From Caldithrix sp. (GTDB lineage: Bacteria > Calditrichota > Calditrichia > Calditrichales > Calditrichaceae), in assembly GCA_014730185.1 (NCBI GenBank), contig WJIP01000100.1:1-39203 (forward strand): 39,203 bases of DNA, in the 5' to 3' direction. Made by a program: the position numbers and the translations under genes. Positions 16,676 through 39,203 of this stretch are shown piece after piece (the first letter of the stretch is position 1; each line of letters begins with the position of its first letter). The notes under the pieces are model-generated. The model ran no database searches. It had not been told where the DNA came from and saw nothing but the letters and a program-made list of their open reading frames with translations.

Positions 16676-18994
16676 TTATTTAACCAAAACAAGTTTTCTA
16701 ATATGGGACCATCCGCTACCGGTTTTTAACCGATAAAAATATACGCCACTGGATACCGAGCTGGCCTTCCAGTTTACATGATGTGTCCCTGCTTCCATTT
16801 CCCGGTTAATGAGAGTAGCCACTTTCTGACCCAAAATATTATAAATACTTAATCGGATCAGATCGGTGACCGGTATTGCAAAAGAAATAGTAGTTGAATT
16901 ATTGAAAGGATTGGGATAGTTCTGATGTAATTTAAAATGCTTAACCGGTCGCATCCGATGGTCGAGCAAGCCGGTTGTCTCCTGACCATGAATCCGCAGA
17001 TTATCCAGCATTATCTGTCCGGTGTAAACCTGATCGCGTTGTCCCTCATCCTGCACACAATGCATCATGAACCGCGTTAGCCTTACCGGATATTTATATG
17101 TATCACCAAATCCACTCAGTGGCACGGATACCGTTTGCCACCCTCTTGCGGATTGTAAATATGCAATATCCAGCAACACTTCCTCTCCTGCTTCATCGGT
17201 CAAATAAAACTTCAGATAATGTTCGTTACCATTATTGAACACATCCAGTAAAAGAGAATCCGGCTCACCGTACAAGGTATATTCACAATCAAAATAAACA
17301 CGGTGCGCCCGGGATGATTCATAAGTCATTTTATAGTTTACCGCCAGAGCATGATCGGCGGAAGTATAGTTGCTGTCTTCAATGGATAGCATAAGACTGT
17401 CAATACCAGCAGTAAACGTATTGAATCTGCCTTTGGAATTAAACGGCTCGATTTCCAGATATTCGTAAGCCGGTAAGATGGTAATCGTTTGCTGAAATGT
17501 TGCGCCCTCAAACAAACCGGTTAACGTACCCTCTCCCGCTTTCATTGCCTTAAAAGTGCCGGTTGAATCCACTTCCCCAATAGATCCGGAAATCTGCCAC
17601 TCAATACAGGAACCGTCATCAATGATGATCGGTCGACTTTCTTCCGTTTGGGCCATGAGATTTAAAGCCACCTGCTGACCAACAACCAGCGTATCTATTG
17701 TTTCCGTAAGAATCAACGATTCGATGGGCGGAAAGGCAGACACCGGCCGTACATACTGCGGTTGTTCTTCAAAATTTATCGTCATAGCACCATCCCTGTT
17801 GTACAGATATCGGTTAACCTGGCCCGTCATACCCCACACTTCCATACGGCCGGTAAATATGGCAACCTCGTCATTCACTACTCCTGAAGTACACCACAAT
17901 GCTTTGAGAGAATCCTGATCATTGGCGAATGTATAGACATAACGATCGTCCTTAGCCTCTGTACTTACAAGTGATTTATTCCCTGTTAAAGTAGCCTCTG
18001 TCCTGACCGCAAAGTAGGCTGGCTTAGGAAATAAGTTATAATTCATCAAACCAAAATTATGCTCATTGTTATCCGCTTCTGTACCATCATTTTTTAGATC
18101 GTAATACGTAACAGATTGCAGCGATTCGATGTTGCGTCCCAGCAAATACAGGCGACTCAGCCAGGCAGCCTGTTCTTGCAGGCTGACATAAGGCCAAACC
18201 GAAGATGTGGGATAGCCCACTTCCGTAATCCACACCGGTTTTTGCACACCAATTATGTTTTGTAAGACGTTGATATCATTTGCCAGCCAAGTTTCCGGAC
18301 CGGCGCCGAAGCGGTAAAAATGAACAGATACGCCATCCATGTAATCTCCGCCACCCGAATTGTAAACACCTTCAATGAAAGACAACCAGTCAATGGCCGG
18401 CAGCGGCTCACCTTCAGCCGGAGAAGTAGCGCAACCTAGTACTGTAACCGTGGAATCAACGGCTTTAATAGCCGGATAAACCGCCTGCAGCAAAGCGCCG
18501 TAGTTGCCGGCATGAGGTTCCGGTGACCAGAACATGGGTATATTCGGTTCGTTCCATATTTCATAATACTTTACGCCCAGCGGTGCATATCGTTTGACGG
18601 TCTCCACGCAATAGTTGACAAAAGCTTCACGATTGATTTCGTTTTCAATTCCGAAACTGGAGTGCGCAGCATAATGCGGATTATTATAGTTCAGAATGAG
18701 CAATATTTCGATTCCTCTTCGGCGGGCTTCTTCGATGTAGAAATCGATTTGCCAGGGAAATTCATACACCCCGGTATCCCGTTCCACATCAGTCCAGTAA
18801 CATTCATCGCGAATGAGCTGAATGCCGGCAGACTTTACCGAATCCAGCATGTTAATCACACTAGCCGAATCCATATCGGCCCGTTTGTATTGACCGAAGT
18901 GTGTTTGTACACCGTGGTAATAAGACGTATTTTCCTGGGCAACTAAGGGGATCATAAAAACATAGAATATCAGTAGAATTTTGATACACTTCAT
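16676..18994 (-). CDS. Secreted TIM-barrel glycoside hydrolase with type IX sorting domain
   Basis: 772 residues. After a signal peptide (ending near LVAQ at 20), a catalytic TIM barrel spans about residues 25-345. It resembles clan GH-A enzymes such as GH39 and GH5: the acid/base is Glu149 in YEIWNEPN and the nucleophile is Glu258 in VWITEVGYP. An Ig-like Big_2-type domain follows (about 430-510), then a jelly-roll domain (about 515-670, ending IMLDNLRIHG) typical of carbohydrate binding. The last 80 residues are the type IX (Por) sorting domain with LHQNYPNPFN, YNILGQKV and SGVYFYRLKTG. The substrate is likely a plant or microbial polysaccharide, but the exact family is not certain. AAAGG before the ATG serves as ribosome site. 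It is monocistronic and convergent with the Omp85 gene. Confidence 0.85.
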   Translation of the reverse strand: MKCIKILLIFYVFMIPLVAQENTSYYHGVQTHFGQYKRADMDSASVINMLDSVKSAGIQLIRDECYWTDVERDTGVYEFPWQIDFYIEEARRRGIEILLILNYNNPHYAAHSSFGIENEINREAFVNYCVETVKRYAPLGVKYYEIWNEPNIPMFWSPEPHAGNYGALLQAVYPAIKAVDSTVTVLGCATSPAEGEPLPAIDWLSFIEGVYNSGGGDYMDGVSVHFYRFGAGPETWLANDINVLQNIIGVQKPVWITEVGYPTSSVWPYVSLQEQAAWLSRLYLLGRNIESLQSVTYYDLKNDGTEADNNEHNFGLMNYNLFPKPAYFAVRTEATLTGNKSLVSTEAKDDRYVYTFANDQDSLKALWCTSGVVNDEVAIFTGRMEVWGMTGQVNRYLYNRDGAMTINFEEQPQYVRPVSAFPPIESLILTETIDTLVVGQQVALNLMAQTEESRPIIIDDGSCIEWQISGSIGEVDSTGTFKAMKAGEGTLTGLFEGATFQQTITILPAYEYLEIEPFNSKGRFNTFTAGIDSLMLSIEDSNYTSADHALAVNYKMTYESSRAHRVYFDCEYTLYGEPDSLLLDVFNNGNEHYLKFYLTDEAGEEVLLDIAYLQSARGWQTVSVPLSGFGDTYKYPVRLTRFMMHCVQDEGQRDQVYTGQIMLDNLRIHGQETTGLLDHRMRPVKHFKLHQNYPNPFNNSTTISFAIPVTDLIRLSIYNILGQKVATLINREMEAGTHHVNWKASSVSSGVYFYRLKTGSGWSHIRKLVLVK

Positions 18995-23943: not shown

Positions 23944-25614
23944 TTAACGCATTAGCACACATTTTCCGGTTACAGCTTGTCTGCCATTGCTAACTTGGTA
24001 GAAATATACACCGGAGGGTAAATGTTGTGCATTCCAGGATATGCTATGATAACCGGCCTCCTGTCGCCCTGCTTGCAATACGTCTATTTGCTTGCCGGTG
24101 ATACTATAAAATGATAGAGTAACCATTGCATTGTGTTTTAAGTAATGGCTGATTTCAGTACGGGCATTGAATGGATTGGGAAAATTACCTGCCAGACGAA
24201 ACGATTCGGGTAATGAACCGCTTTGCCTTTTCACACCGCTAATAAACGTAACCCGGTTGACCAAATCAAAAACATCCCCTTCAGCGAAAAAATGCAGGAC
24301 GCCATTTGTGAGGCCGCAATAATTTGTATTACGGGTACCATTAATTCCGGCAAAACTTTCATCGGTACAGTGCAAGACGTACATCATTTTATCCGTTGAA
24401 AGTATACCGGCGGAGTTCTGAGTTAAATTGACCCCTTCATCGGCATACACTGTAGTGGCCTTGGGGTATTCGGTCAGTCCCCACATGCCTCCCACAAACC
24501 GGTTTTCATAATAATCATAATCTGAATATAATCTGGGAATAATAATCGTTTCCGGAATACGATTCAAGCCATCACTGATGCTGAGATGGCCATACCAGGC
24601 ATTTAACGCACCTGATGTTACATTGCCGATTTCCTTTTTCCCCAGTTGCCCGCTTGAAGTATGTCCGCCGGAGAATGTTGTATCCCTAAAAACCGGATAA
24701 TCGCCGGAAGTGCTGCTGCCCACCGCGGCCATATAAGGTCCCGGATCGATTAATTGACGCTGGTTCAAGTCATACACCGCACCATGTATCAGCTTGTCGA
24801 ATTGAATATGCTTATATCGCACCGGCTTATTACCCTGACATCGAATATTCGATTCCTCAGTAGGCGATAAAATTGTAACCGATCCTTCACCGTAAGCCGT
24901 TGCCTGATTTTGCCGATCAATACAAAGGGCCGTTTTATCGGCGACACCAATTCCGATCAGTTCTGTATCAGCATTATCCTGTATGCGGCAGGCCAACATG
25001 GGTACCAGGTGGCCCAGCCTGCCCCGGGAATGAAAATGGGAATCGGTTAACACATTGGGTAATATATTGAGAAAATCATCCGTAAAATGGATATGGTAAT
25101 CGTATGGATTATAGGCGGCTTCGTTGGCATATACGGTTCCGAATTTTGCATCAAAAACGACTTCGCCTAATACGGCCAGACCGGCGCTGGTGCCACCGAT
25201 GGCACCGCCTTGTTCAAACACATAATGTAGAGCATCTTCCACTAATGTATTTTTCCAGGTATCAATATAGTCCCATTGATCACCGCCTTCAATAAGGATG
25301 CCCTGGGCTGAAATCAATTGCTTGTAAGTCGCCGAATCCTCGGCGGCGCTAAGCGAACTTATTTGCATCATTTTACTCGAAGCATCTGCACCAAGGCGTG
25401 TAAAGTATGCCGGATAAAAATCTGCTGTGGGTGATGTATCGATATTTATGATTTTTCCGGAATCGGCCTGTTGCACAAACCAGCCATAGGGTTCATCGGA
25501 CCAGGAGTTATCGTCTTCACAGCCGCCGCCGACCAGTAGTAAAGATCCCTGGGCCAGCCCCAAAATGGGTAAAATGACTAAAAAGCAAAAATTGCGTATA
25601 CATCTTGCCATCAT
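23944..25614 (-). CDS. Secreted S51-family (cyanophycinase-like) peptidase with type IX sorting domain
   Basis: 556 residues. A signal peptide ends near residue 22 (GLAQ). The S51 domain follows: LLLVGGGCEDD, IINIDTSPTADFYPAYF, GILIEGGDQWDYI, and the nucleophile Ser in IGGTSAGLAVLG, then TDSHFHSRGRLGHLV, as in cyanophycinase and dipeptidase E relatives that cleave after aspartyl residues. A beta-rich segment of about 200 residues comes next. The end is a type IX sorting domain (NFPNPFNARTE, YSITGKQIDV, SGVYFYQVSNG). The protein is therefore probably exported to the surface to digest peptides. The start is the ATG at 25614 with GGGGAG upstream. It lies 32 bases after the end of the M14 pseudogene on the same strand, so the two were likely one operon. 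Confidence 0.85.
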   Translation of the reverse strand: MMARCIRNFCFLVILPILGLAQGSLLLVGGGCEDDNSWSDEPYGWFVQQADSGKIINIDTSPTADFYPAYFTRLGADASSKMMQISSLSAAEDSATYKQLISAQGILIEGGDQWDYIDTWKNTLVEDALHYVFEQGGAIGGTSAGLAVLGEVVFDAKFGTVYANEAAYNPYDYHIHFTDDFLNILPNVLTDSHFHSRGRLGHLVPMLACRIQDNADTELIGIGVADKTALCIDRQNQATAYGEGSVTILSPTEESNIRCQGNKPVRYKHIQFDKLIHGAVYDLNQRQLIDPGPYMAAVGSSTSGDYPVFRDTTFSGGHTSSGQLGKKEIGNVTSGALNAWYGHLSISDGLNRIPETIIIPRLYSDYDYYENRFVGGMWGLTEYPKATTVYADEGVNLTQNSAGILSTDKMMYVLHCTDESFAGINGTRNTNYCGLTNGVLHFFAEGDVFDLVNRVTFISGVKRQSGSLPESFRLAGNFPNPFNARTEISHYLKHNAMVTLSFYSITGKQIDVLQAGRQEAGYHSISWNAQHLPSGVYFYQVSNGRQAVTGKCVLMR

Positions 25615-28854: not shown

Positions 28855-29523
28855 ATGCATATTCAACATCGCTGGGACTTGACGCCAAAAGAGGCCACCC
28901 AATTACAAAACAAGTTGGCCAGCCACATCAGTCTCGAGGATACCGGTCAACGGTTTACTACGGTTGCCGGGATCGATGTGAGTTACACCTTATCTGAAAA
29001 TAAGGCTCATGCCGCTATAGTCGTATGTGCCATGGATACATTGGATATCATCGAAGAACAAACAGCCGCAATGCCAATCACCTTTCCTTATATTCCGGGA
29101 TTACTCTCCTTCCGGGAAGTACCGGTTATTCTGAAAGCCTGCAACAAATTATCGATCTTTCCGCATCTTTTAGTATGCGACGGGCAGGGTATTGCACACC
29201 CACGGCGGTTAGGATTGGCCTGTCACTTAGGTTTGTATCTGGATAAACCGGCTATTGGGGTAGCCAAAAAACGGTTAACCGGTGCACATCGCCAATTGGG
29301 GATACATAAAGGAAACTGGACTTATTTGAAAGCCGGGGATGAAAAAATTGGTATTGTATTTCGTTCCCGCAAAAAGGTAAAGCCAATCTACATTTCCCCG
29401 GGGCATAAGATCAGCATGAACAGGGCACTCTCATTGATTCGCCGCATGCATACTGTTTACCGGCTGCCGCAACCCATCCGTTATGCGCATCGCCTGGCTA
29501 ACGAAAGTAAGGGCATTATTTAG
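28855..29523 (+). CDS. nfi: Endonuclease V (deoxyinosine 3' endonuclease)
   Basis: Nicks DNA one base 3' of deoxyinosine during repair of deaminated adenine. About 222 residues, the usual size. All family motifs are visible: VAGIDVSYT (catalytic Asp), PYIPGLLSFRE (wedge loop), LVCDGQGIAHPRRLG (second Asp and His), IGVAKKRLTG, and GHKISM near the C-terminus. Two starts are possible: ATG 28825, which overlaps the end of the S51 gene, and ATG 28855, which begins one base after its TGA and gives the family-like N-terminus. AAGGAGAT at about 28830 fits neither ideally. The gene is probably co-transcribed with the S51 lipoprotein. Its last eight bases overlap the end of the convergent LPP20 gene. 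Confidence 0.92.
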   Translation: MHIQHRWDLTPKEATQLQNKLASHISLEDTGQRFTTVAGIDVSYTLSENKAHAAIVVCAMDTLDIIEEQTAAMPITFPYIPGLLSFREVPVILKACNKLSIFPHLLVCDGQGIAHPRRLGLACHLGLYLDKPAIGVAKKRLTGAHRQLGIHKGNWTYLKAGDEKIGIVFRSRKKVKPIYISPGHKISMNRALSLIRRMHTVYRLPQPIRYAHRLANESKGII

Positions 29524-29965
29524 CGGTTTGCATCTCCAGCAGCACATAAACCTGCCAGAACTTATCGCTCTTATACTTTTCGATTTCTTTGACTTCATGA
29601 ATTGGTAATTGCACATTGAGTTCATTAGCGGATGCCCCTCCGCTTTCAGTATGTGCGGGATTTTGCAACGCGCTGTATTTCTCAGCTAATTGAATGCGGG
29701 CCTGCATGGTTGCTTTTCGCTGGGCGATTTCTCCCCTTATGGAACGGGCCGTACCGACTGCGTAAATAAAGCCATCTTTCTGCGGTACGTTTTCAAACCA
29801 GTTCGGTACCGGAACTTCCTGTTCTATATTTGTTCGCATACTATCCTTTTGATGGGTTAAACTGCTGTCGGCCGGCATTTGATTTTCTTGATCATCAGTG
29901 GAAGAACAGGCAACCAAGACAACAACAATAAGGCCGGTGGTCAAAAATCTGAAAATTTTATCCAT
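29516..29965 (-). CDS. LPP20-family lipoprotein
   Basis: 149 residues. Signal with lipobox LVVVLVAC (Cys at about 20), a Ser/Asp/Gln-rich linker, then an LPP20-type domain: PVPNWFENVP, GFIYAVGTARSIRGEIAQRKATMQARIQLAEKY. This is the family pattern of PxW..P, a G-A/V-G strand and a long Ala-rich helix. LPP20 relatives are outer-membrane lipoproteins, some of them flagellar (FlgP-like), but function is mostly unknown. It is the last gene of the - strand envelope cluster, 15 bases after the FecR gene. Its 3' end overlaps nfi by eight bases. Confidence 0.75.
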   Translation of the reverse strand: MDKIFRFLTTGLIVVVLVACSSTDDQENQMPADSSLTHQKDSMRTNIEQEVPVPNWFENVPQKDGFIYAVGTARSIRGEIAQRKATMQARIQLAEKYSALQNPAHTESGGASANELNVQLPIHEVKEIEKYKSDKFWQVYVLLEMQTAK

Positions 29966-29980
29966 TTAAAACCATTTTGT

Positions 29981-30784
29981 TTATTTGTTTTGCAGCAAAC
30001 GATCGCGTTCTTTGTTCCAGCGTACCCAGTCCGATTGATTGTCTTCCTGCATATCAAATGTAGAAGCTTTATAAGAGATATCCTGCATAGCCTTAAACGC
30101 TTTTAAATCGTTTTCCACCATCTGATTAAACTGCTGTTGGTCCTGCTGTTTAAAACGTTCGAAAGCATCCATATCATCTTCCCGGAAATTACGGAACGCT
30201 TCCTCTTGTTGTTTTTTATAGGTTTCAAAATCCATTACCAATATCAGCTCCTGACCGCCGGTCACTTTAAAAGTTGAATCGGCCAGCGCCGTCCGCCCTT
30301 TGTTGTAAGGCGTAACCGCCAGTTCGCCTTGATAACAACGGTAGGACGTTTGATTGGAATCGCTTTCCAAACGAAACACTGTGCCGCGCACTGCGCAAAT
30401 GGACGTGGGTGTTTTAACCCGAACAGAACTTTCTCCGCGTGGGAAAAACAGACTCAACCATCCTCTGCCTTTGCTCACCTCCACTTCATTTTCATTTTTT
30501 GCCGGTTGGGTAATTTCCACAACCGAATTTTCACCAATACGCATAACTTTCTTGGTGGACAAGGTTACCTCACATCGGGCTTCCTTATCGGTCTTTATTT
30601 TATCACGATTATGCACCGGTGCCTGAAATTCAGCCGTTTCCCAGGATAACCTACCAGCATCCTGGATAAAATACTTGCCAATGGAAAAAGTGACTTTACC
30701 AACAGAACTCTGCTTCGGTTGTTGGCCATAGCCCATGCAAAGCAGAGTCAGAAGTATCAAAATAATTATTCCTATATGCTTCAT
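29981..30784 (-). CDS. FecR-domain exported protein with C-terminal helical repeat
   Basis: 267 residues with a signal peptide (ending near GYGQ). A FecR domain covers about residues 28-165: VGKVTFSIGKYFIQ, VHNRDKIKTDKEARCEVTLS, MRIGENSVVEIT, KTPTSICAVRGTVFRLE and YQGELAV, which is the standard beta-helix pattern. There is no transmembrane anti-sigma anchor, so it is a stand-alone periplasmic FecR protein rather than a FecI partner. The last 80 residues are a charged helix with a recurring Phe-Asp pattern (EEAFRNFREDDMDAFERF, QQDQQQFNQMVENDLKAF) that also occurs in the next protein upstream. AGAGGATTC precedes the ATG. It is co-oriented and 44 bases from the transglutaminase gene. Confidence 0.82.
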   Translation of the reverse strand: MKHIGIIILILLTLLCMGYGQQPKQSSVGKVTFSIGKYFIQDAGRLSWETAEFQAPVHNRDKIKTDKEARCEVTLSTKKVMRIGENSVVEITQPAKNENEVEVSKGRGWLSLFFPRGESSVRVKTPTSICAVRGTVFRLESDSNQTSYRCYQGELAVTPYNKGRTALADSTFKVTGGQELILVMDFETYKKQQEEAFRNFREDDMDAFERFKQQDQQQFNQMVENDLKAFKAMQDISYKASTFDMQEDNQSDWVRWNKERDRLLQNK

Positions 30785-30828
30785 AAGAATCCTCTGATCT
30801 ATAATGATTCGAAATTAATTCACAAGAA

Positions 30829-32301
30829 TTATTTGTAACCTAATATTTTGGGAGTTACGTCCCGATATTCCGGCATCGCCATTCCCGCCCTTGCATTAAC
30901 ATAGGTAGGATCACACACCGTATACTGTTTTCCTTTATAGTTTACATGATCCCCGCTGACCGTTGTACCAAGATTAACAGCGGTACTGATATGGCCGGGG
31001 TAATCCAAAATAAGGATCTTCTTGCCCAGTAATTGTTCGACCAGAAAAGCAAACAAAATGGATCGATCTTCGCAGTCTGAATCGGGATAGTGGATAGTTT
31101 CTTCCGGCAACAAATATTTTTCCCGGCCGAATTGTATATCATCGGTTTTATACCCAAATGCGGTTTGCGCAAAGCGCAATAAAAAATTTACAGCCTGCAA
31201 TTCGGTCATCCCATCCACATGGGGCCGGAGAGCATCGAGCAATGAGAACTGAAAGGCTTCCGAAGGCGTTGCGGTAAAAAATAAGCTCAACTCAGTTTGT
31301 GGATAGTCATTAAAAAATTTTATCGCATCCGCATTATATTTAACACGGAGTGCGTAATGATTGTCCTCATAAGTAAACGTCAATTTTTTGGTGGCGTTCT
31401 TTCGTGAAATTACCGGCATCATAACGATATCTAAACCTACATCCTGTTCTGCAGCCTGATGACTTCCCCGGTAAGTATATACGGGTTGTCCCTTATTCAG
31501 AGCATGGCCGAATGGCGCAAAGTAAAACCGTTTACCATCAATCACGGTAAAAGGCGTTTCATACATCATTTGCCTTGTAGGGATCATTAACAGAATATGC
31601 TTACCCTGATAAGCAACTTTTGCCTGTAAGCCACTTTTGTTTAAAAAGAACCAATCCAGCAGCAGTTGCTGATTGATATTCGCTCCGGCCGTCTTTTGGC
31701 TAAAGGCATGAATCAGTAGTACATATCCCCAATCATTCAAACGCATTGTATTTTTTAAGGTTTGCAACTGCTGAACCGTTTCATTATAATCGCTCTTCGC
31801 CATTTTCGTCCACGCTGCTGCAATATCTTTTTTGTTCCCACTAAAACGGTTAAACAGGGGAGCTGGGGATTCATAATTGACCGTTAACGGTTTGTCAAAA
31901 AAATCAAATGTGGTCTGGGGCTTATCCGGTTCTGAAACCGGTTTTTGTATTTCCGGTTCGGTTATCGGTTTAGGTTTGGGTTTAGGCACCTTAATTTTTT
32001 TCGATGATTCTTTAATTTCGGGTTTTGGTATTTTCCGCTCGGGTGGTTTTTGCGGTTTTGGCGCTACGGGCATTTCAACCGGTTTTGGTTTTGGATCAGC
32101 CTCAACGCCCTGATCGGTCTGGAAGGCTTTCCAGTCTTGTTCCAGAAATTTTAAGAATGCCTTGTCCTGTTCGTCCAAATAATTCTGAAATTTTTGACGA
32201 TCTTTCTTCTTCCACTCTTCAAAATTTTCCTGAGTGAAGGCGTTTTGTAGTAAAAGGATACCAAGTATCAAGGTGGTATAAACATTTAATTGACGCAACA
32301 T
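30829..32301 (-). CDS. Exported transglutaminase-like protein with helical repeat and Pro/Lys linker
   Basis: 490 residues. A signal peptide ends near residue 23 (AFTQ). Residues 24-65 are a charged helix with the Phe-Asp repeat (FEEWKKKDRQKFQNYLDEQ, AFLKFLEQDWKAFQ). A linker of about 90 residues, rich in Pro, Lys and Glu in PKPKP-like units, probably spans the periplasm. The C-terminal 330 residues end in a transglutaminase-like cysteine protease fold: SDCEDRSILFAFLVEQL with the candidate Cys, DYPGHISTAVNLG with the His and YTVCDPTYVNARAGM with the Asp. Such domains cleave or cross-link peptides, here of unknown identity. The strong site GGAGGGGGG abuts the ATG. It lies between the FecR and DUF2135 genes in the same direction. 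Confidence 0.8.
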   Translation of the reverse strand: MLRQLNVYTTLILGILLLQNAFTQENFEEWKKKDRQKFQNYLDEQDKAFLKFLEQDWKAFQTDQGVEADPKPKPVEMPVAPKPQKPPERKIPKPEIKESSKKIKVPKPKPKPITEPEIQKPVSEPDKPQTTFDFFDKPLTVNYESPAPLFNRFSGNKKDIAAAWTKMAKSDYNETVQQLQTLKNTMRLNDWGYVLLIHAFSQKTAGANINQQLLLDWFFLNKSGLQAKVAYQGKHILLMIPTRQMMYETPFTVIDGKRFYFAPFGHALNKGQPVYTYRGSHQAAEQDVGLDIVMMPVISRKNATKKLTFTYEDNHYALRVKYNADAIKFFNDYPQTELSLFFTATPSEAFQFSLLDALRPHVDGMTELQAVNFLLRFAQTAFGYKTDDIQFGREKYLLPEETIHYPDSDCEDRSILFAFLVEQLLGKKILILDYPGHISTAVNLGTTVSGDHVNYKGKQYTVCDPTYVNARAGMAMPEYRDVTPKILGYK

Positions 32302-32330
32302 CCCCCCTCCCTTCTTTTATTTTGAAAATT

Positions 32331-33506
32331 TTATCGGATAACGCCTGAGCTGCTGCTTTCGTTAAACAACTCATTTAGTGTGATAATTTGATTATGTTCA
32401 TTAATCCGAAAAACCTTCCATGCGGTTCCCCTTTGATGTCGGGGAATATCAAAACTGGCTTTAAGTTTACCATCGGCATACACATCTACATGGGCCTGAC
32501 TCATGGATAAATCGATGCTATTGTCACGATTGCGGCCGCTGTAATTGTGCACAGCATATGTGTACTTGCCTCTTGCCGGACGATAAATAGTTATAGTTTC
32601 CGGGCCATAGGAATTTTGGTCATCAATATCAAGGAAATCCTTTCCACCGATCGTTGTACGATTGCGCCACCAGATATGAAAATGGTTGCCACCTGGTTCA
32701 GGACCGGCCAGATGGGCATCCAGATCGCGTGGAAAAGGTCCCCAAGTTAGCACTATGCGAAATTGATCAACTTTGGGGGTTAGAGCAAAATTCATCTGCA
32801 CCGGTAGCTCCGTCAAATCCATCTCGAACTCATGCTTGGACGCTAGAAATCCATCCTTACTAAATAAGACATCGTATTTTCCATAGGGAAATTTTTGCTG
32901 GAATAGGCCCTCTTCATCGGTTTTACCTTTGCCGACGGTTTCACCGGTTTGCCGGTTTTTCACCATCACATTAACACCCGCCAACGGTTCTCCGGTTGCT
33001 GCATTAACCATTGATACCTTATATATACGCTGGTGTTGATACATTTCCGTAAATTCAAAAAACTGGTTATCGATAATGGCGCCACCTCGAAAAACCAGAC
33101 CCGGTGTATTTTGCGGTACCGTTAACTGGTAGGTTTGTTGATTGACATTATCTTCAACCCAGATTTCCACCTTGGCGTTAGATAACATCATAAAATCATC
33201 CTCTGTGGCGAAAGATTCATCCATTAAATTGTTCACCACCCAAATATTTACCAGTCGGTCGCCGGCATCAATGATTATAAACTCTTGAGTGCCACCGTCA
33301 AATGTAGTACTGCTTTCAATGTTTCCATCGGAAGACGTTTCTTTTAGATTTCCGCGGATCGCTTCCACTTTGCCATCATGATAATATTGCAAAACGCCTT
33401 CAGCTTCGCCCATCATTGCCATTTCATCCCAACGAATAGTAACTTTAAAATCATAAGCTTGCAACGGTACAACTGTCAGAAGGATCCAAAGTAACCATTT
33501 CCACAT
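32331..33506 (-). CDS. Exported protein with carboxypeptidase-regulatory-like and DUF2135 (YfaP) domains
   Basis: 391 residues after a signal peptide that ends near QAYDF. The N-terminal 145 residues are an unrecognised beta-rich domain. About 160-240 is a carboxypeptidase-regulatory (peptidase associated) fold: YKVSMVNAATGEPLAGVNVM, KGKTDEEGLFQQKFPYGKY, FSKDGFLA. About 250-375 is DUF2135/YfaP-like: LTWGPFPRDLDAHLAGP, HFHIWWRN, FLDIDDQNSYGPETITI, GKYTYAVHNYSG and GTAWKVFRI. YfaP-type proteins are periplasmic and occur near alpha-2-macroglobulin-like genes, which are not in this window. AAAGGAG precedes the ATG. Gaps to both neighbours are under 40 bases, so it is in the same operon. Confidence 0.8.
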   Translation of the reverse strand: MWKWLLWILLTVVPLQAYDFKVTIRWDEMAMMGEAEGVLQYYHDGKVEAIRGNLKETSSDGNIESSTTFDGGTQEFIIIDAGDRLVNIWVVNNLMDESFATEDDFMMLSNAKVEIWVEDNVNQQTYQLTVPQNTPGLVFRGGAIIDNQFFEFTEMYQHQRIYKVSMVNAATGEPLAGVNVMVKNRQTGETVGKGKTDEEGLFQQKFPYGKYDVLFSKDGFLASKHEFEMDLTELPVQMNFALTPKVDQFRIVLTWGPFPRDLDAHLAGPEPGGNHFHIWWRNRTTIGGKDFLDIDDQNSYGPETITIYRPARGKYTYAVHNYSGRNRDNSIDLSMSQAHVDVYADGKLKASFDIPRHQRGTAWKVFRINEHNQIITLNELFNESSSSGVIR

Positions 33507-33543
33507 AATGGGCTCCTTTCCATGATTAATTAAAAAAATTGGA

Positions 33544-34332
33544 TTACTTTAGCATTGGTGAGTATAGATCCGATTTGCTAATTCGGGCAAGGGCGTAGTA
33601 AAGTTTGTTTTTTAAATCCGGGTAACGCTGGATGATATTTATATTTTGCATATTATAGTAGATCCGGATGAATGTAATTTCTTCCATGGATTCCAGCGAG
33701 AGAATATCCGTATTTTCTTCCGCAAGCAGATTGATCTTGTGTACTTCTACAGCTAAGTTATTCAATATGGAGAATACGGCCTGTTCCTCCGCTGTTTTCC
33801 AACCATCATTTTCCCGGCCCTGGGCAGTATACATGCCTACTCCATAGTAATATTGGTCGTCTTGATAAAAGGTTTTCGCAATCCATTCCGGTTTTTTTAT
33901 TGCCTTAACCTGTATACGGGGAGCCTTTTGCGTGGTAATCGTATCGAGTGTGAATGCGCCAATGTAATCGCCCGTTAAAATATTAATGTCGAATTTTTCT
34001 ACCAATTTTAATTGCTTCTCTATAGAAGAAACGGAATCATCGGAAAAATAATAGTAATAATTACTGTTTTTAAGTAAATCGTTTGAACCAGACACATCGA
34101 AGATTTCTAACCGGCCTTCGGCAATGCAATCTTTGTAAATACAATACATATATGCTGCATCTTCTTTGGCAGATAAACCACCATAACTGTATCCAATAAT
34201 TAATTCAGGATATTCCTGGGGATATATAAACCATTCGGGATAATTGTTTGCCGGAATGACATCGCGTGACAGAATCATTAAGAAAAAGAGCAGAGTAAGA
34301 GTCGTTTTCCAGTTCAGGGATCGTTCAGTCAT
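33544..34332 (-). CDS. Exported LPP20-like protein with two copies of the domain
   Basis: 262 residues. A signal peptide (LTLLFFLMILSRDVIPAN) precedes two segments of LPP20 character: YPEWFIYPQEYPELIIGYSYG with an Ala/Tyr helix (about 31-80), and KKPEWIAKTFYQDDQYYYGVGMYT followed by a helix EEQAVFSILNNLAVEVH (about 148-205). Both keep the PEW motif and a glycine strand. The match is weaker than in its neighbours, so it is a diverged member. There is no lipobox Cys, so the protein is likely soluble in the periplasm. The terminator at 34346-34370 separates it from the upstream gene, so this part of the cluster may have its own promoter, though I see none that is convincing. Confidence 0.65.
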   Translation of the reverse strand: MTERSLNWKTTLTLLFFLMILSRDVIPANNYPEWFIYPQEYPELIIGYSYGGLSAKEDAAYMYCIYKDCIAEGRLEIFDVSGSNDLLKNSNYYYYFSDDSVSSIEKQLKLVEKFDINILTGDYIGAFTLDTITTQKAPRIQVKAIKKPEWIAKTFYQDDQYYYGVGMYTAQGRENDGWKTAEEQAVFSILNNLAVEVHKINLLAEENTDILSLESMEEITFIRIYYNMQNINIIQRYPDLKNKLYYALARISKSDLYSPMLK

Positions 34333-34345
34333 TATTGAGTCCGAT

Positions 34346-34370
34346 AAAAAGGGGAGGGTTTTACCCCTCC
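34346..34370 (-). terminator. Terminator within the lipoprotein cluster
   Basis: On the - strand GGAGGG (34370-34365) pairs with CCCTCC (34358-34353) around a six-base loop, then CCTTTTT. It lies ten bases after the 34380 gene and splits the cluster into an upstream and a downstream part, possibly with partial read-through. Confidence 0.65.
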
Positions 34371-34379
34371 GCCCATCGA

Positions 34380-34985
34380 TTAATAATTACCTTGTTGTTG
34401 TTTTTCGTAATCTTGCATTTCATTCTTAAGCTCTTCATAGGCTTGTGAGGCACGGAAACGCTCATAGAGTTTTTTGTCTTTCTTTTGCAGTTCATCCAGT
34501 ATAGACATATTAACTTTATTGGGCTCAATTGCCACAAGGGCGGCAGCTGTAAATTGGCCTGTTTCCGGATCACGCATGTATTTAACCTTTTTAGTAATAG
34601 CACCTTTCAATACTTGGCTACTCAAGGTTTTGGTGACTGTGGTGAAAGCTTCATTGATTTCAGTGTCGTCGGCGCTACCAATTTCTTCCTGAAACGATTT
34701 ATTCATCCGTTGCACTTTGCTGTTGAATATTTCAGCCAATTGACCTTTAGCATCGGTTTCCGCTTTCTTTTTAGCCAAATCCTGGCGTTTGGAAGTACCC
34801 TGACCAACCGCTGCCACACCGCCACCATCAATGATCTGATTGGTTTGATTGGTCAAATCCTGAAACGGATCTTCAAATACTTCGGGACCACCGGATCCAG
34901 AGGACATTTTCTTTCCTCCCCCACAGGCCATTAATAAGGCCAATGTAAAAACAGCTAATAAACTGACAAATAATTGTCTCTTCAT
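34380..34985 (-). CDS. LPP20-family lipoprotein
   Basis: 201 residues from the ATG at 34985, which has AGGAGAT six bases upstream; an in-frame start at 35018 lacks one. The lipobox is ALLMAC (Cys at about 21), followed by a Gly/Ser/Lys linker. The LPP20-like domain shows GGVAAVGQGTSKRQDLAKKKA, AKGQLAEIFNSKVQRM and FTTVTKTLSSQVLKGAI, which form an Ala/Lys-rich helix then beta strands as in the family. A charged C-terminal coil (LQKKDKKLYERFRA, EELKNEMQDYEKQQQ) ends the protein. Upstream, 251 bases of AT-rich DNA separate it from the next gene and may contain its promoter. Confidence 0.75.
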   Translation of the reverse strand: MKRQLFVSLLAVFTLALLMACGGGKKMSSGSGGPEVFEDPFQDLTNQTNQIIDGGGVAAVGQGTSKRQDLAKKKAETDAKGQLAEIFNSKVQRMNKSFQEEIGSADDTEINEAFTTVTKTLSSQVLKGAITKKVKYMRDPETGQFTAAALVAIEPNKVNMSILDELQKKDKKLYERFRASQAYEELKNEMQDYEKQQQGNY

Positions 34986-35236
34986 GGTACATCTCCTTTG
35001 GTTGGTTAAGAGTAGCATAATTTAGTACGTCAATGCCTTACAAACAAAATTTTTAAATCTTTTAATCTCAACAATCTCAGCTCCACATTCCGTTTCTGTA
35101 TACAACACTATATAATTGCGCATTCATTTCTATTTTATTTTAACACATCATTTCCGCTCAACTTTAACTTTAAAGCTATTCTCGAAAAACCTTCTTTTTA
35201 CATCAATGATTTAAATCAAATCTTTCGAATTATTCA

Positions 35237-36271
35237 TTAAAGTTGTCGTAAATAATCAACAAATTGTTGGTGAAAGTTTTCAGTAAGGCGGCTGCGAATT
35301 ATGCTCAACATTTTGGCCGTGGCCTGATCATCCGAAATGCCCATGGTACGATTACTTAAATTAAATGTTTTGAGAGCATAGTTATTAAGGTTATCCTTCA
35401 CCTCGATAGCAAGTTGCCAATTATACCCTGTAATGTTCTGCCGGTTGAGGTTGGCTTTCGAGGTTTCCAAATGATAATCGAAAAGGAAATCAGCCTGTTG
35501 GTTGACTACCTTAAACCCGATTTTCCCGACAACTTCTTTAAGATAGTCTTCCATTTCTCTCTGGTGTGCACCTTTGCCCTTAATAATTACTGTGATATTG
35601 TTAAGTAATTCAAGCCGTTCTTTTTCCAGATCGGAGAGTAACACAGGGGCTTTTGGCATCGAACCCGATATGGTTATGATCTGATACTGGGCCTTTAATA
35701 ATTCATTAATCTTCATGATATTAATCGCGTTCTGCAGAAAAGCATAGCGGTTTAGTTTATTGGAACTCGCTTGATAATTATCGTAATATTTTTGAACGGT
35801 TTGATAATTATCGGCCATCTCTTTTTTATAAATTTCTTCAGTATCGCTGCGATCCAGATAAGCAAGAACATAATAAAGACCCTCGCTTTCATCAAAAAAG
35901 GATTCAGCAATCGTAATATTTTTTATGTTTTGCCGGCTGCCTACTTTAGTTTTATTCAGCATTTGGGAAGTAAAAGAAGCTTCATCTTTTGTTTCCAGAT
36001 AATTTTCGACTAACGTTTCATCGACCCGAACGTCTGCCTGAAAAATTTTTGAAATACTGCCAATGGCATTGTTTTCTGCGTCGGCACGTGTATCTCCGGT
36101 ACCTATTCCTACCAAATACATACTCTTGGGATATTTTTTATGAGGATGATGCACCCACTCCGGTTGTTGATCTCCAGTAGTTGGTTTTTGTTTTTGAGCA
36201 TAGGTACAGGATAATAAAAAAGTAAAGAAGAGCGTTAATACGCCAACAGCACGAATATGTTTTAATGTCAT
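35237..36271 (-). CDS. LPP20-like exported protein, larger form
   Basis: 344 residues. The ATG at 36271 is preferred because AAGGA lies eight bases before it; the TTG at 36286 would overlap that site. The N-terminus is hydrophobic (VGVLTLFFTFLLSC) with a possible lipobox Cys. The LPP20-like domain is clear: QQPEWVHHPHKKYPKSMYLVG, GTGDTRADAENNAIGSISKIF, VLAYLDRSDTEEIYKKEM. A second region of about 150 residues (PKAPVLLSDLEKERLELL, YLKEVVGKIGFKVVNQQADF) has an alternating pattern like the FlgT/CsgG-type C-terminal modules, but this is tentative. It starts 11 bases after the COG3014-like gene and is certainly in its operon. Confidence 0.7.
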   Translation of the reverse strand: MTLKHIRAVGVLTLFFTFLLSCTYAQKQKPTTGDQQPEWVHHPHKKYPKSMYLVGIGTGDTRADAENNAIGSISKIFQADVRVDETLVENYLETKDEASFTSQMLNKTKVGSRQNIKNITIAESFFDESEGLYYVLAYLDRSDTEEIYKKEMADNYQTVQKYYDNYQASSNKLNRYAFLQNAINIMKINELLKAQYQIITISGSMPKAPVLLSDLEKERLELLNNITVIIKGKGAHQREMEDYLKEVVGKIGFKVVNQQADFLFDYHLETSKANLNRQNITGYNWQLAIEVKDNLNNYALKTFNLSNRTMGISDDQATAKMLSIIRSRLTENFHQQFVDYLRQL

Positions 36272-36282
36272 CGTTTGATCCT

Positions 36283-37701
36283 TCAATTTAATGATACAGC
36301 ATCTATCAGGTTTAATCCCGCATCCACTTTAAAATTGGGTACTTCTTTTGTTTTAACGATCAGTCCGTTCCTATTAATAAATTTAATGGTTATATGATGG
36401 GTACCCGGTGGGACATCAAATTCACCCACATAACAATGTTGCGGCATGGTTTGCCAACAACGTAAATCCGCATTTTCGGTGGCATCCACACCCATATCCA
36501 CCGCTGCATCCATGATGGCACCCAGGAAAGCATTAGCACCGGTCTCTTTACGTAGTTTCTTTTTCGCCTCGGCCGCAGCTAATCCCTTAACAACCGTGCG
36601 GATAATGGTCTTAAAATATATTATATTCTTTTTAGTTTCGAAGGTATGCTTAGCCACTTTACCCATATCCTCGAGCAAATACAATTTTCCCAGCTTTTTG
36701 CTATTCATAAACACATCAATCTGGTTGATATTGGAGTGGCCTTCCTTAATCACTGGCATAGAAAATTTAAAATGATAACCTTTCTTCATGCCGGGGAAGG
36801 GAATATTAGGGGTTGCAATGGGCATCTCAAGGCTGCTTATACCAATTGCATCATCATAGGTCGTAATCTTACCACCCACTGCCTTTTTACTGGGGGCTTT
36901 ACCTGTAAATGCAATAATATTCATTTTAGTTTTCTCACCACGTCGGGTACTGGAGCCGGATGCGTCACCCAATTGAGCCCATTTTATATTTTTCCTGATA
37001 AAATCAGGCATCGCGTAATCATATATATTGCTGTATGTATTCCAGGCTTCATTAAGATTGGTAAGAGCAATACGGCTGTCATCATAGGCCCCTTCGGCCC
37101 GATATATAAGATGACTAATGTAATGAGCCAATACATCATCGGTAAATTTTATAGTGCCGGGATCGATTTTAATTTTTGCATCTTCGGCAGTGTTCATTTC
37201 CCGGGCCATGCGTTCATACTTATCCTGTAATTCACGCAGTTTGATATCAATGCGGCGTACTTCTACATAGGCATCATCGAAACGATTCAGATTTAAATAA
37301 TTTACAGCTTTGAAAATATTCACATAGATATTTTCATACACTTCACCGTAATAGGGTAATGCATTATCGTTGAGTAATAATGAAGCAGCAGCTTTGGAAA
37401 CACTTTTTGTAAACAATTCCTCCATGGCCAATTCCGCTTGCTCAAACAATTCATTACTCTTTGCATATTGTCCCTGATAGTGTAATATGGAACCTTTATT
37501 TAGGTAATACAGCACACGATCTTTTTTGGTATATGCTTTATTTTGTCTGGCCTTGTCAATTTGAGTAATGGCTTTTGCATAATTACCTGTTTTAAGGTGG
37601 TTACGAAGGGGCTGGACAAGACTTACATTAGTTCTAGTGGAAGCACAGGCGGTTAATAGGACAAGAACATAAACCAACAATGAATACTTACAAGTTTTCA
37701 T
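36283..37701 (-). CDS. COG3014-like TPR lipoprotein
   Basis: 472 residues. Lipobox LLTAC (Cys at about 19). The N-terminal 200 residues are TPR-like helices (LKTGNYAKAITQIDKARQ, LYYLNKGSILHYQGQYAKSN, YVNIFKAVNYLNLNRFDDAY) as in COG3014 proteins. The second half is beta-rich, with FPGMKKGYHFKFSMPVI, a long helix of Ala and Lys (VKGLAAAEAKKKLRKETG), and the segment DLRCWQTMPQHCYVGEFDVP, GTHHITIKFINRNG. The Cys-Trp-QTMPQ segment is the most recognisable feature of that family. COG3014 proteins are found next to LpoB and LPP20-like genes, as here. The ribosome site is weak. It follows lpoB after 437 bases and could have a separate promoter. Confidence 0.72.
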   Translation of the reverse strand: MKTCKYSLLVYVLVLLTACASTRTNVSLVQPLRNHLKTGNYAKAITQIDKARQNKAYTKKDRVLYYLNKGSILHYQGQYAKSNELFEQAELAMEELFTKSVSKAAASLLLNDNALPYYGEVYENIYVNIFKAVNYLNLNRFDDAYVEVRRIDIKLRELQDKYERMAREMNTAEDAKIKIDPGTIKFTDDVLAHYISHLIYRAEGAYDDSRIALTNLNEAWNTYSNIYDYAMPDFIRKNIKWAQLGDASGSSTRRGEKTKMNIIAFTGKAPSKKAVGGKITTYDDAIGISSLEMPIATPNIPFPGMKKGYHFKFSMPVIKEGHSNINQIDVFMNSKKLGKLYLLEDMGKVAKHTFETKKNIIYFKTIIRTVVKGLAAAEAKKKLRKETGANAFLGAIMDAAVDMGVDATENADLRCWQTMPQHCYVGEFDVPPGTHHITIKFINRNGLIVKTKEVPNFKVDAGLNLIDAVSLN

Positions 37702-38138
37702 AATTTTACCATTGATGAATTTTGCATGCTATCGAATTATTAATGGATCAACGAAATTTATTGTTACTGAATCCACTATATTGAAAATTACTATTAAATA
37801 AAGTTTTCAGCATTAATCTGACGTGCTTTCAGAAGTTTAATCCCCTTGAATTCAATAACCAAAAAATTGAGTGCGGAAATACTTAACCGTCAGCATTTAC
37901 CTTTTGCTGTATATTTTCAATTACAATTAAATTGCTGCCTTTTGAATGATGAAAAATCCTGACTTATATTTTTTGAAATTCAGACCCACTACAGAAACAA
38001 TCGGCTTATAATTTCATGGACTCTACCGACATTTCATTAGGTTTGATATTTAAACTTTGCTTAACTTCAATTTTGTCCCGGTTTACTTGTCAAGCTCTTG
38101 TATTCTCGAACCTTTACACAAAATACTTGAGGAAAGAT
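37702..38138. other. AT-rich intergenic region between lpoB and the COG3014-like gene
   Basis: 437 bases without a credible gene, terminator or strong promoter. Only weak -35/-10-like pairs are seen upstream of 37701 on the - strand, so I call none. A 69-codon + strand frame at 38016-38225 overlaps lpoB and is hydrophobic by chance. Confidence 0.5.
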
Positions 38139-38753
38139 TTACCATTTATACTTATCTTGTTCGATAAATTTCTTAATTTTTTTATCACCCATCCACACTT
38201 TGGTATTTTTTTCAAGGTCAATTAATTCCAAATTAACCTGATAATAGACCGTCTTTTTACCTTCGAATGAATCCACAATGGAATTAATCGTACCTTGAAG
38301 CATAAAATCCGCACCGGTTTCATTGGCTAATTGTTTTGCAGTTTCCATAGACGAATAGCTTTGCTGATCCAGTCGTTCTTCCCGGATTTCCTGGCGTTGT
38401 TTTTTTGATGCAACAAACGTTACTTGTCCCGAATTGATTAACTCTTTTTCTATATCTTTGATAAACACATCTACCGGAATATGTTCACTACTACGGTTAC
38501 GTATTGTTCCCACAATTACAACCGGACGCACTCCATAATTTTCCGTATAATCACTAAGCCAAGGTCGTGAAAGCACATCCCGGACCATTGCCTGGGCCGT
38601 CATGCGTGAGTCGGTATCATTCCATCTTCCGCTGATGTCTGTTGTTTCATCCGCTTCTATTCTTGAAACTTTCCGTGTAGAACCGGCGCAATGAATCAAT
38701 GCATATGATACCAAAAAAATCATCATGATGCGCATTAAGTGTGATACTGGCAT
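38139..38753 (-). CDS. lpoB: LpoB-family lipoprotein (penicillin-binding protein activator type)
   Basis: 204 residues from the ATG at 38753, which has GGAGG five bases upstream; a longer in-frame start at 38801 has no such site. The lipobox is ALIHC. The rest is the LpoB domain (Pfam PF13036): DISGRWNDTDSRMTAQAMVRD, PVVIVGTIRNRSSEHIPVDVF, KDIEKELINSGQVTFVASKK, REEI-type IREERLDQQ, ADFMLQGTINSIVDSF and YQVNLELIDLEKNTKVWMGD. In E. coli LpoB activates the peptidoglycan polymerase PBP1b from the outer membrane; the present protein belongs to the wider family found with COG3014 genes, where that role has not been shown. It heads the envelope cluster. Confidence 0.88.
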   Translation of the reverse strand: MPVSHLMRIMMIFLVSYALIHCAGSTRKVSRIEADETTDISGRWNDTDSRMTAQAMVRDVLSRPWLSDYTENYGVRPVVIVGTIRNRSSEHIPVDVFIKDIEKELINSGQVTFVASKKQRQEIREERLDQQSYSSMETAKQLANETGADFMLQGTINSIVDSFEGKKTVYYQVNLELIDLEKNTKVWMGDKKIKKFIEQDKYKW

Positions 38754-39080
38754 TTTGGCCTCCAAACCATAAGTTCTCAATTCCGTTAAGAATAATTTCA
38801 TATCTACGCTCTAAAGATAGTAAACTAATTTATAAAAAAAAAGATTTTTGAGGGAAATTATACACACTGATCGTCATAAAATTATATTAAACTCCTAAAT
38901 TATTTTCTGGCCTTTTCGATTAATCGGTTGAGCAGCTTTGCTTTAACAAAATAACGAATCTTTCTTACTGGTCTCACTTTATGCATACCATGTTTAATCC
39001 GAAGATTGATGCATAAATTTGTTTTAAAGTATTTATCAAGTTATGGTAGTATTCTACTGGTGCATGTTTTATGAAAGAAC
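38754..39080. other. Intergenic region upstream of lpoB
   Basis: 327 bases, AT-rich. It holds the lpoB ribosome site (GGAGG at about 38759-38763) and an optional small basic frame at 38900-38986. No promoter or terminator is convincing. Confidence 0.45.
38900..38986 (-). CDS. Possible 28-residue basic peptide
   Basis: An ATG-to-TAA frame that encodes MHKVRPVRKIRYFVKAKL then LNRLIEKARK. Eleven of 28 residues are Lys or Arg, and hydrophobic residues are spaced as in an amphipathic helix. There is no ribosome binding site and no relative that I know. It may be a chance frame or a remnant. Confidence 0.2.
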   Translation of the reverse strand: MHKVRPVRKIRYFVKAKLLNRLIEKARK

Positions 39081-39203
39081 CTATTGTACCAAAATCATTT
39101 TCTTTGCGTTTTGCCAGCTACCCGCTTGGATGCGGTAAAAATAAACTCCACTGGGCAAATTAGAGCCGTCAAATTTTACCTGATGATAGCCCCTATCCTG
39201 ATG
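39081..39203 (-). CDS. C-terminal end of a type IX-sorted secreted protein (partial)
   Basis: The last 40 codons of a gene that continues past the window end. The peptide GYHQVKFDGSNLPSGVYFYR followed by IQAGSWQNAKKMILVQ is the closing part of a type IX (Por) sorting domain, like the ends of the proteins at 16676 and 23944. The stop is TAG at 39081-39083. The catalytic or binding part lies outside, so no function can be given. It is on the same strand as lpoB but about 330 bases upstream. Confidence 0.85.
   Translation of the reverse strand, partial: HQDRGYHQVKFDGSNLPSGVYFYRIQAGSWQNAKKMILVQ

Follow-up and report, generated by a model that had tools for sequence, protein, structure and literature searches.

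What do nine neighbouring genes for exported and lipid-anchored proteins do in the cell envelope of Calditrichaceae? We addressed this question for a locus in a contig of Caldithrix sp. (WJIP01000100.1), analysed over its whole length of 39,203 nucleotides and referred to below as the window; it is the entire contig C27 of the genome labelled G000 in our survey. Nine open reading frames (ORFs), all on the - strand, span positions 29516-38801 and encode, in the order of transcription, an LpoB-family protein (A), a tetratricopeptide repeat (TPR) lipoprotein (B), three LPP20-type proteins (C, D, and E), a protein with transthyretin-like and DUF2135 domains (F), a transglutaminase-like protein (G), a FecR protein (H), and another LPP20-type protein (I). 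With moderate confidence, we propose that they form a non-flagellar complex that sits on the inner face of the outer membrane and maintains its connection to the cell wall, and that the locus is an enlarged form of the set made of LpoB and a COG3014-type TPR lipoprotein (plus LPP20). The proposal starts from direct observations, namely the conserved cluster, its domain content, a catalytic triad in G, a promoter and terminator pattern around D, and independence from flagella.

Conservation of the nine-gene cluster

A sequence-only reading of this DNA had described nine consecutive - strand genes for exported or lipid-anchored proteins, and all nine ORFs were found in place with signal sequences. 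Signal peptides inspected by eye end in a cysteine in A, B, C, D, and I, as in lipoproteins, and are of the ordinary type in E, F, G, and H, which suggests five lipoproteins and four periplasmic proteins. A hidden tenth gene, such as ycfL, was sought in the 437-bp gap between A and B and rejected, as the gap holds no plausible ORF.

The survey covered 40 genomes of the class, mostly fragmented metagenome-assembled genomes (MAGs), including 15 Calditrichaceae genomes from 11 genera. Contigs were scanned with the nine window proteins and then with family profiles; because HMMER E-values came from very small databases, bit scores are quoted in their place. B was found in 16 and G in 17 of the 40 genomes, and within Calditrichaceae in 14 and in all 15, respectively; the named relatives of B are Calditrichaceae or Calditrichota MAGs. 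The order A-B-C-D-E-F-G-H-I on a single strand was kept in every Calditrichaceae genome where the contig is uncut. The junctions A-B, B-C, C-D, D-E, E-F, and G-H were each retained in 13-14 genomes with no break within a contig, and F and G were adjacent in 10 genomes, with only one optional gene, X, intervening otherwise. Identity of the Calditrichaceae orthologues to the window proteins was mostly 40-70% (only 26-38% for I), and I was undetectable after H in G004 and G012 with either the window proteins or the family profiles. The flanking genes vary between genomes, the endonuclease V flank being present in just two other genomes. Fixed order with changing flanks indicates that selection, or else strictly vertical inheritance as a functional unit, keeps the cluster together. 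Relatives of these genes are therefore not scattered, since the uncut loci of the family all share one order, and the nine genes are confirmed as a real conserved cluster, beyond chance.

Gene X separates F from G in five genomes (G002, G003, G004, G007, and G011; loci L043:4743-6269, L048:6256-7788, L059:2893-4365, L056, L061, and L062). It combines an LPP20 N-terminus with a DUF4384 C-terminus, and one stretch resembles, by eye, CsgG/FlgT-middle.

LPP20-type proteins and independence from flagella

Four of the nine genes are of LPP20 type. Gene C (35237..36286, - strand) encodes an LPP20 lipoprotein that has an additional domain at its C-terminus; the protein matches PF02169 (8.1e-07; 29.8 bits, cut-off 25.9), as do all 14 of its orthologues. 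The window proteins D (34380..34985, - strand, alternative start 35018), E (33544..34332, - strand), and I (29516..29965, - strand) score below the PF02169 cut-off, and most of their orthologues match LPP20: 11 of 12 for the small lipoprotein D (best 3e-07), 10 of 12 for the periplasmic E, which carries the domain at its C-terminus (alignment A5), and 8 of 11 for the short lipoprotein I (best 3.3e-06). Profiles cross-match between D and I (about 31-36 bits) and between C and E. The mean column identity of D is 69% (alignment A9), and a PDB sequence search with D gave no useful match. The family profile of C matches PDB entry 4kzs, an LPP20 family protein (E=0.0016) that we take to be HP1454. 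The LPP20 label of the sequence-only reading is thus supported above the cut-off for C and through most orthologues for D, E, and I, and its labels of LpoB for A and FecR for H, discussed below, hold as well.

These domains raise the question of whether the locus builds a flagellar outer-membrane ring of the H-ring or basal-disk type. LPP20/SHS2 and TolB-M folds are common to FlgP, Lpp20, and FlgT, and FlgP and FlgT form rings (PMC12222027), which agrees with the earlier idea of a ring; A weakly matches FlgT_M, and Caldithrix abyssi carries flagellar genes (PMC5317091). However, flagellin and FlgI were undetected in G000 (96% complete) and G014 (94%), both of which keep the locus, whereas many members of the flagellated class families f2 and f4 lack it. 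This gene content makes an H-ring or basal-disk role unlikely; we rejected the flagellar ring as largely refuted and very improbable, in line with the non-flagellar role suggested in the sequence-only reading.

Another conserved gene pair, with its members about 3 kb from each other, recurs in most other class families; one gene encodes an LpoB/CsgG-like protein of ~310 aa and the other an LPP20 protein of ~280 aa (G025:C16, G026:C20, G030:C10, G033:C522, G036:C186, G039:C1:1594255-1597657, and others).

Gene A and control of peptidoglycan synthesis

Gene A (38139..38801, - strand; probable start 38753 or 38726; alignment A3) encodes an LpoB-family lipoprotein with a TolB-N/PelC-like fold. It scores 147 bits against the LpoB family PF13036 (cut-off 22.3) and 101.1 bits against TIGR02722, the NCBI LpoB equivalog, which is under the cut-off of 110.55. 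The A profile gives 95 bits to LpoB of Aeromonas and only 12.5 bits to that of E. coli. In a PDB sequence search, the top match of A was 5t11 (weak), presumably the PelC ring protein, and LpoB scored lower; PelC is a ring former. A search of plasmids with A returned matches from Aeromonas and Marinobacter.

The LpoB label suggests that A might reach through the wall and activate a class A penicillin-binding protein (PBP), like LpoB of E. coli, with the other proteins modulating this activity. The strong PF13036 match, the score of Aeromonas LpoB, and the presence of class A PBP genes in 14 of the 15 Calditrichaceae genomes favor such control of the synthase, as does the co-precipitation of the wall hydrolases MltD and AmiA with HP0018, a TPR lipoprotein of Helicobacter pylori (PMC11394524). 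In contrast, UB2H, the domain by which PBP1B docks LpoB, was undetected in 14 of the 15 genomes, G000 included, although a divergent form could escape this search; the only match, in G005, was weak and below the cut-off, and the E. coli control was detected. The TIGR02722 score, the low score of E. coli LpoB, and a top PDB match other than LpoB point the same way. Since UB2H was undetected in most genomes, the E. coli mechanism is unsupported here, and these comparisons do not prove that A activates PBP1B; the sequence-only reading had named LpoB as an activator of peptidoglycan synthesis in E. coli. Synthase control appears rather unlikely as the function of the locus.

Gene B and its proteobacterial relatives

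Gene B (36283..37701, - strand; alignment A1) encodes a TPR lipoprotein of COG3014/HP0018-like type whose C-terminal region has a beta and a helical part. A fold search with its AlphaFold2 (AF2) model (pLDDT 78) returned TPR proteins only; a PDB sequence search gave no useful match, and no B relatives were found on plasmids. The B family profile scores a COG3014-type TPR lipoprotein of Aeromonas at 41.7-43.2 bits in an alignment that covers the TPR part and a C-terminal D-R-W-LP motif, and no named COG3014 model in the libraries used matched B; the earlier label "COG3014-like" is thus borne out through the Aeromonas protein and not by a named model.

In Aeromonas caviae, the B-like gene lies two genes before lpoB, in the cluster hinT-COG3014-ycfL-lpoB-thiK, in agreement with the earlier statement that COG3014 genes sit beside LpoB-like genes elsewhere. 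E. coli K-12 has hinT-ycfL-lpoB-thiK without the COG3014 gene, and the Aeromonas arrangement suggests that the E. coli lpoB neighbourhood once had a B-type gene. We found no paper joining COG3014 with LpoB in the literature searched. The A. caviae record (L098:3582-6540, pKAM479_3) is filed as a plasmid, but with 4.9 Mb and 18 annotated features it looks chromosomal.

An independent A-B pairing occurs in the class family f6 (G037 and G039). In G039 (L055:5540-9837), the pair is preceded by genes for an outer-membrane barrel-transglutaminase fusion, a FecR-like protein (by eye), and an adhesin-like repeat protein, possibly a functional stand-in for the F-H arm.

The candidate enzyme arm

Gene F (32331..33506, - strand) encodes a periplasmic protein with a carboxypeptidase-regulatory-like (transthyretin-fold) domain (PF13620, 2e-09) and a DUF2135 domain. 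The latter, named in the sequence-only reading, is supported by the F family profile, which scores E. coli YfaP (DUF2135) at 36.9 bits over YfaP 141-249, and not by Pfam DUF2135, which gave no match to F.

Gene G (30829..32301, - strand) encodes a putative LapG-like cysteine enzyme of the transglutaminase fold, 490 aa long with N-terminal 11-residue aromatic repeats. The Cys-His-Asp triad C410/H437/D464 (codons 31074-31072, 30993-30991, and 30912-30910, - strand) is invariant in all 17 orthologues. No transglutaminase Pfam family matched the window protein, and Transglut_core was weakly matched by 8 of the 17 orthologues. The AF2 model (pLDDT 84) has LapG as its best PDB fold (prob 0.95, E 0.056), and a PDB sequence search gave only chance-level matches to cyclodipeptide synthase. 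The transglutaminase assignment therefore persists in the triad, the weak orthologue matches, and the fold, but not in a Pfam match of the window protein, and the LapG-like nature of G, as modelled, is a lead rather than proof. In the predicted structure, helices and strands in the first half of G (residues 157-261) follow one another in the order seen in the catalytic half; this first half may be a degenerate copy of the transglutaminase domain.

Gene H (29981..30784, - strand) encodes a periplasmic FecR-domain protein (PF04773, 8.9e-12, 45.7 bits) that ends in 11-residue aromatic repeats; a PDB sequence search with it gave no useful match. The repeat is common to the N-terminus of G (lag-11 correlation 0.73) and the C-terminus of H (0.50), and the G/H repeat profile reaches up to 21.1 bits compared to 3.2 for shuffled tails, suggesting that G and H interact with each other or with a common partner.

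If G acts like LapG, it might cleave a protein that is secreted or displayed on the surface, and the LPP20/TolB-fold lipoproteins might serve as an exit ring. Release or secretion of this kind is consistent with LapG as the best fold of G, its intact triad, and the resemblance of A and C to ring-forming families. A gene for a type IX-secreted FG-GAP/ASPIC-UnbV protein of ~620-650 aa also immediately precedes A in G002, G003, G008, and G011 (L045:9655-11523, L058:2316-4259, L060, L048, and L040:1631-3487), and the window contig opens upstream of A with the last part of a comparable secretion tail (39081-39203, - strand). However, G005, G006, G007, G009, and G014 lack this gene or have another one upstream of A, and the LapG match is weak. 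We consider this explanation unlikely.

The FG-GAP/ASPIC-UnbV gene is complete beside A in G008, G002, and G003; in G011, where the contig is cut, its C-terminal end is seen. Relatives in G001 lie farther upstream, behind a transposase-like gene. Elsewhere in the window, type IX tails occur on a GH5-like glycoside hydrolase and a peptidase S51-like protein (16676-18994 and 23944-25614).

Separate transcription signals of gene D

The gap between C and D contains a Crp/Fnr-type palindrome, TTGATTTAAATCAT (35206..35219, - strand), and the pattern TTGAT-N4-ATCAA is present in all 14 C-D gaps with 0-2 mismatches. Seven perfect palindromes were found in 247 kb of loci, six of them in the C-D gap. 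A -10-like hexamer, GAGAAT (35178..35183, - strand), lies 22 nt past the window palindrome, a spacing that marks a class II Crp/Fnr activator site. At this offset, the -10 match averages 4.14/6 over 14 loci (shuffle 99.9% limit 3.57), and 11 of the 14 loci have a hexamer of at least 4/6 at exactly 22 nt. Directly 3' of D, an intrinsic terminator, GGAGGGGTAAAACCCTCC followed by CCTTTTT (34353..34370, - strand), lies ~15 nt before the start codon of E. Such a terminator follows D in 9 of 12 loci, compared to 0.25 expected from shuffles and 0-2 at the other junctions, with sequences unrelated between loci.

The conserved promoter and terminator indicate that D is separately regulated inside the cluster. 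D thus has its own predicted Crp/Fnr-type promoter, and the nine genes do not form one simple transcription unit. With the terminator just before E, genes E-I of the window would depend on read-through or on a promoter within D. The "one machine" of the sequence-only reading keeps the conserved gene order in its favor and loses its simplest form, in which D would lack signals of its own; separate regulation, which that reading would have taken as contrary evidence if it applied to each gene, was indicated for D only.

The signals of D also fit a shared history with no complex, in which D would act on its own as a stress lipoprotein and the groups A-B, C-E, and F-I would each have a separate task. 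In line with this, f6 has the A-B pair but not the other genes, and f5 has G but no B. However, the gene order is fixed across 11 genera despite the changing flanks, G and H have a repeat in common, and in the f5 genome G032 (L052:6198-11215) G again adjoins a D-like LPP20 gene and a CsgG-family gene. We therefore regard a merely shared history as distinctly improbable.

Proposed function of the locus

The preferred complex between outer membrane and wall could work as follows. A, B, C, D, and I would provide a lipid-anchored scaffold of TolB-fold, SHS2-fold, and TPR proteins. G, held via H through the matching 11-residue helical repeat, would cut or join a periplasmic target, which may be a lipoprotein, an outer-membrane protein, or wall peptides. 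D would be a structural subunit made in larger amounts while an Fnr-type regulator is active, and since the window genes E-I would depend on read-through, the terminator after D may keep them lower as a form of dosage control. Together, the proteins would form the complex and maintain the envelope, the cysteine-enzyme arm (G with H) and the separately induced D being the putative Calditrichaceae extension.

Several points weigh against this proposal. In Calditrichota, neither a phenotype nor a physical contact is known for these proteins, and the LapG match of G (E 0.056) is not significant by E-value. The link of B to HP0018 and to Cj0089 of Campylobacter jejuni goes through the Aeromonas protein, the TPR lipoprotein nature, and the LpoB neighbour, and not through direct sequence comparison. 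If an Fnr-type regulator controls only D, this protein could act independently of those encoded beside it. A coherent regulon around the D promoter was not found: strict sites number 0-3 per genome, none of the nine non-D strict sites examined has a good -10 at class II spacing, and the C. abyssi genome paper describes no Crp/Fnr regulon.

A bolder version, to which we give a low probability, is a new non-flagellar outer-membrane machine in which SHS2/TolB-fold lipoprotein rings would be stacked on a TPR scaffold, a LapG-like protease G docked to H through the matching 11-residue helices, and the main ring subunit D switched separately by the Fnr-type regulator.

LPP20, COG3014-type, and LpoB-like lipoproteins are widespread in Gram-negative bacteria, and their function is little known. 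The fixed nine-gene set, probably also present in the lineage of the cultivated C. abyssi, joins them into one testable system with G as the candidate enzyme and D as the candidate regulated subunit, and it sets them apart from flagella and from UB2H-dependent activation of PBP1B.

Comparison with known systems

The full combination was not described in the literature searched, as the sequence-only reading had stated, but Campylobacter and Helicobacter have its core, a COG3014-type TPR lipoprotein with LpoB, together with LPP20 proteins (PMC3100323, PMC11394524, PMC11756786), and this core was also observed here in Aeromonas. In C. jejuni, cj0089-cj0090-cj0091 are cotranscribed lipoprotein genes (PMC3100323). 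In H. pylori, loss of HP0018 makes cells less helical and hypervesiculating, and its gene adjoins LpoB-homologue genes in many Helicobacter species (PMC11394524). The cj0089-0091 and HP0018-HP1457 sets resemble the locus in having a TPR lipoprotein gene beside an LpoB homologue (PMC3100323, PMC11394524), B being likened to HP0018 and Cj0089 by the indirect route given above. In contrast to the locus, they consist of two or three genes with another middle gene, have no DUF2135, transglutaminase-like, or FecR arm, and are CmeR-regulated in the case of C. jejuni. The gammaproteobacterial hinT-(COG3014)-ycfL-lpoB-thiK cluster differs in having the B-type gene before lpoB with ycfL between them and no LPP20 genes.

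The LPP20/FlgP/FlgT family, including H. pylori HP1454-HP1456, is similar in its SHS2-type LPP20 domains and in the resemblance of C to 4kzs. HP1454 and HP1456 belong to one operon and bind FlgP and FapH (PMC11756786), a flagellar link that the present locus lacks, and here four to five paralogues stand together. Finally, G is similar to the LapG cysteine proteinases in its periplasmic location, the D-C-E-D, H, and D motifs of the triad, and its best fold, but differs from them in its length of 490 aa, its N-terminal aromatic-repeat segment, and its extra domains.

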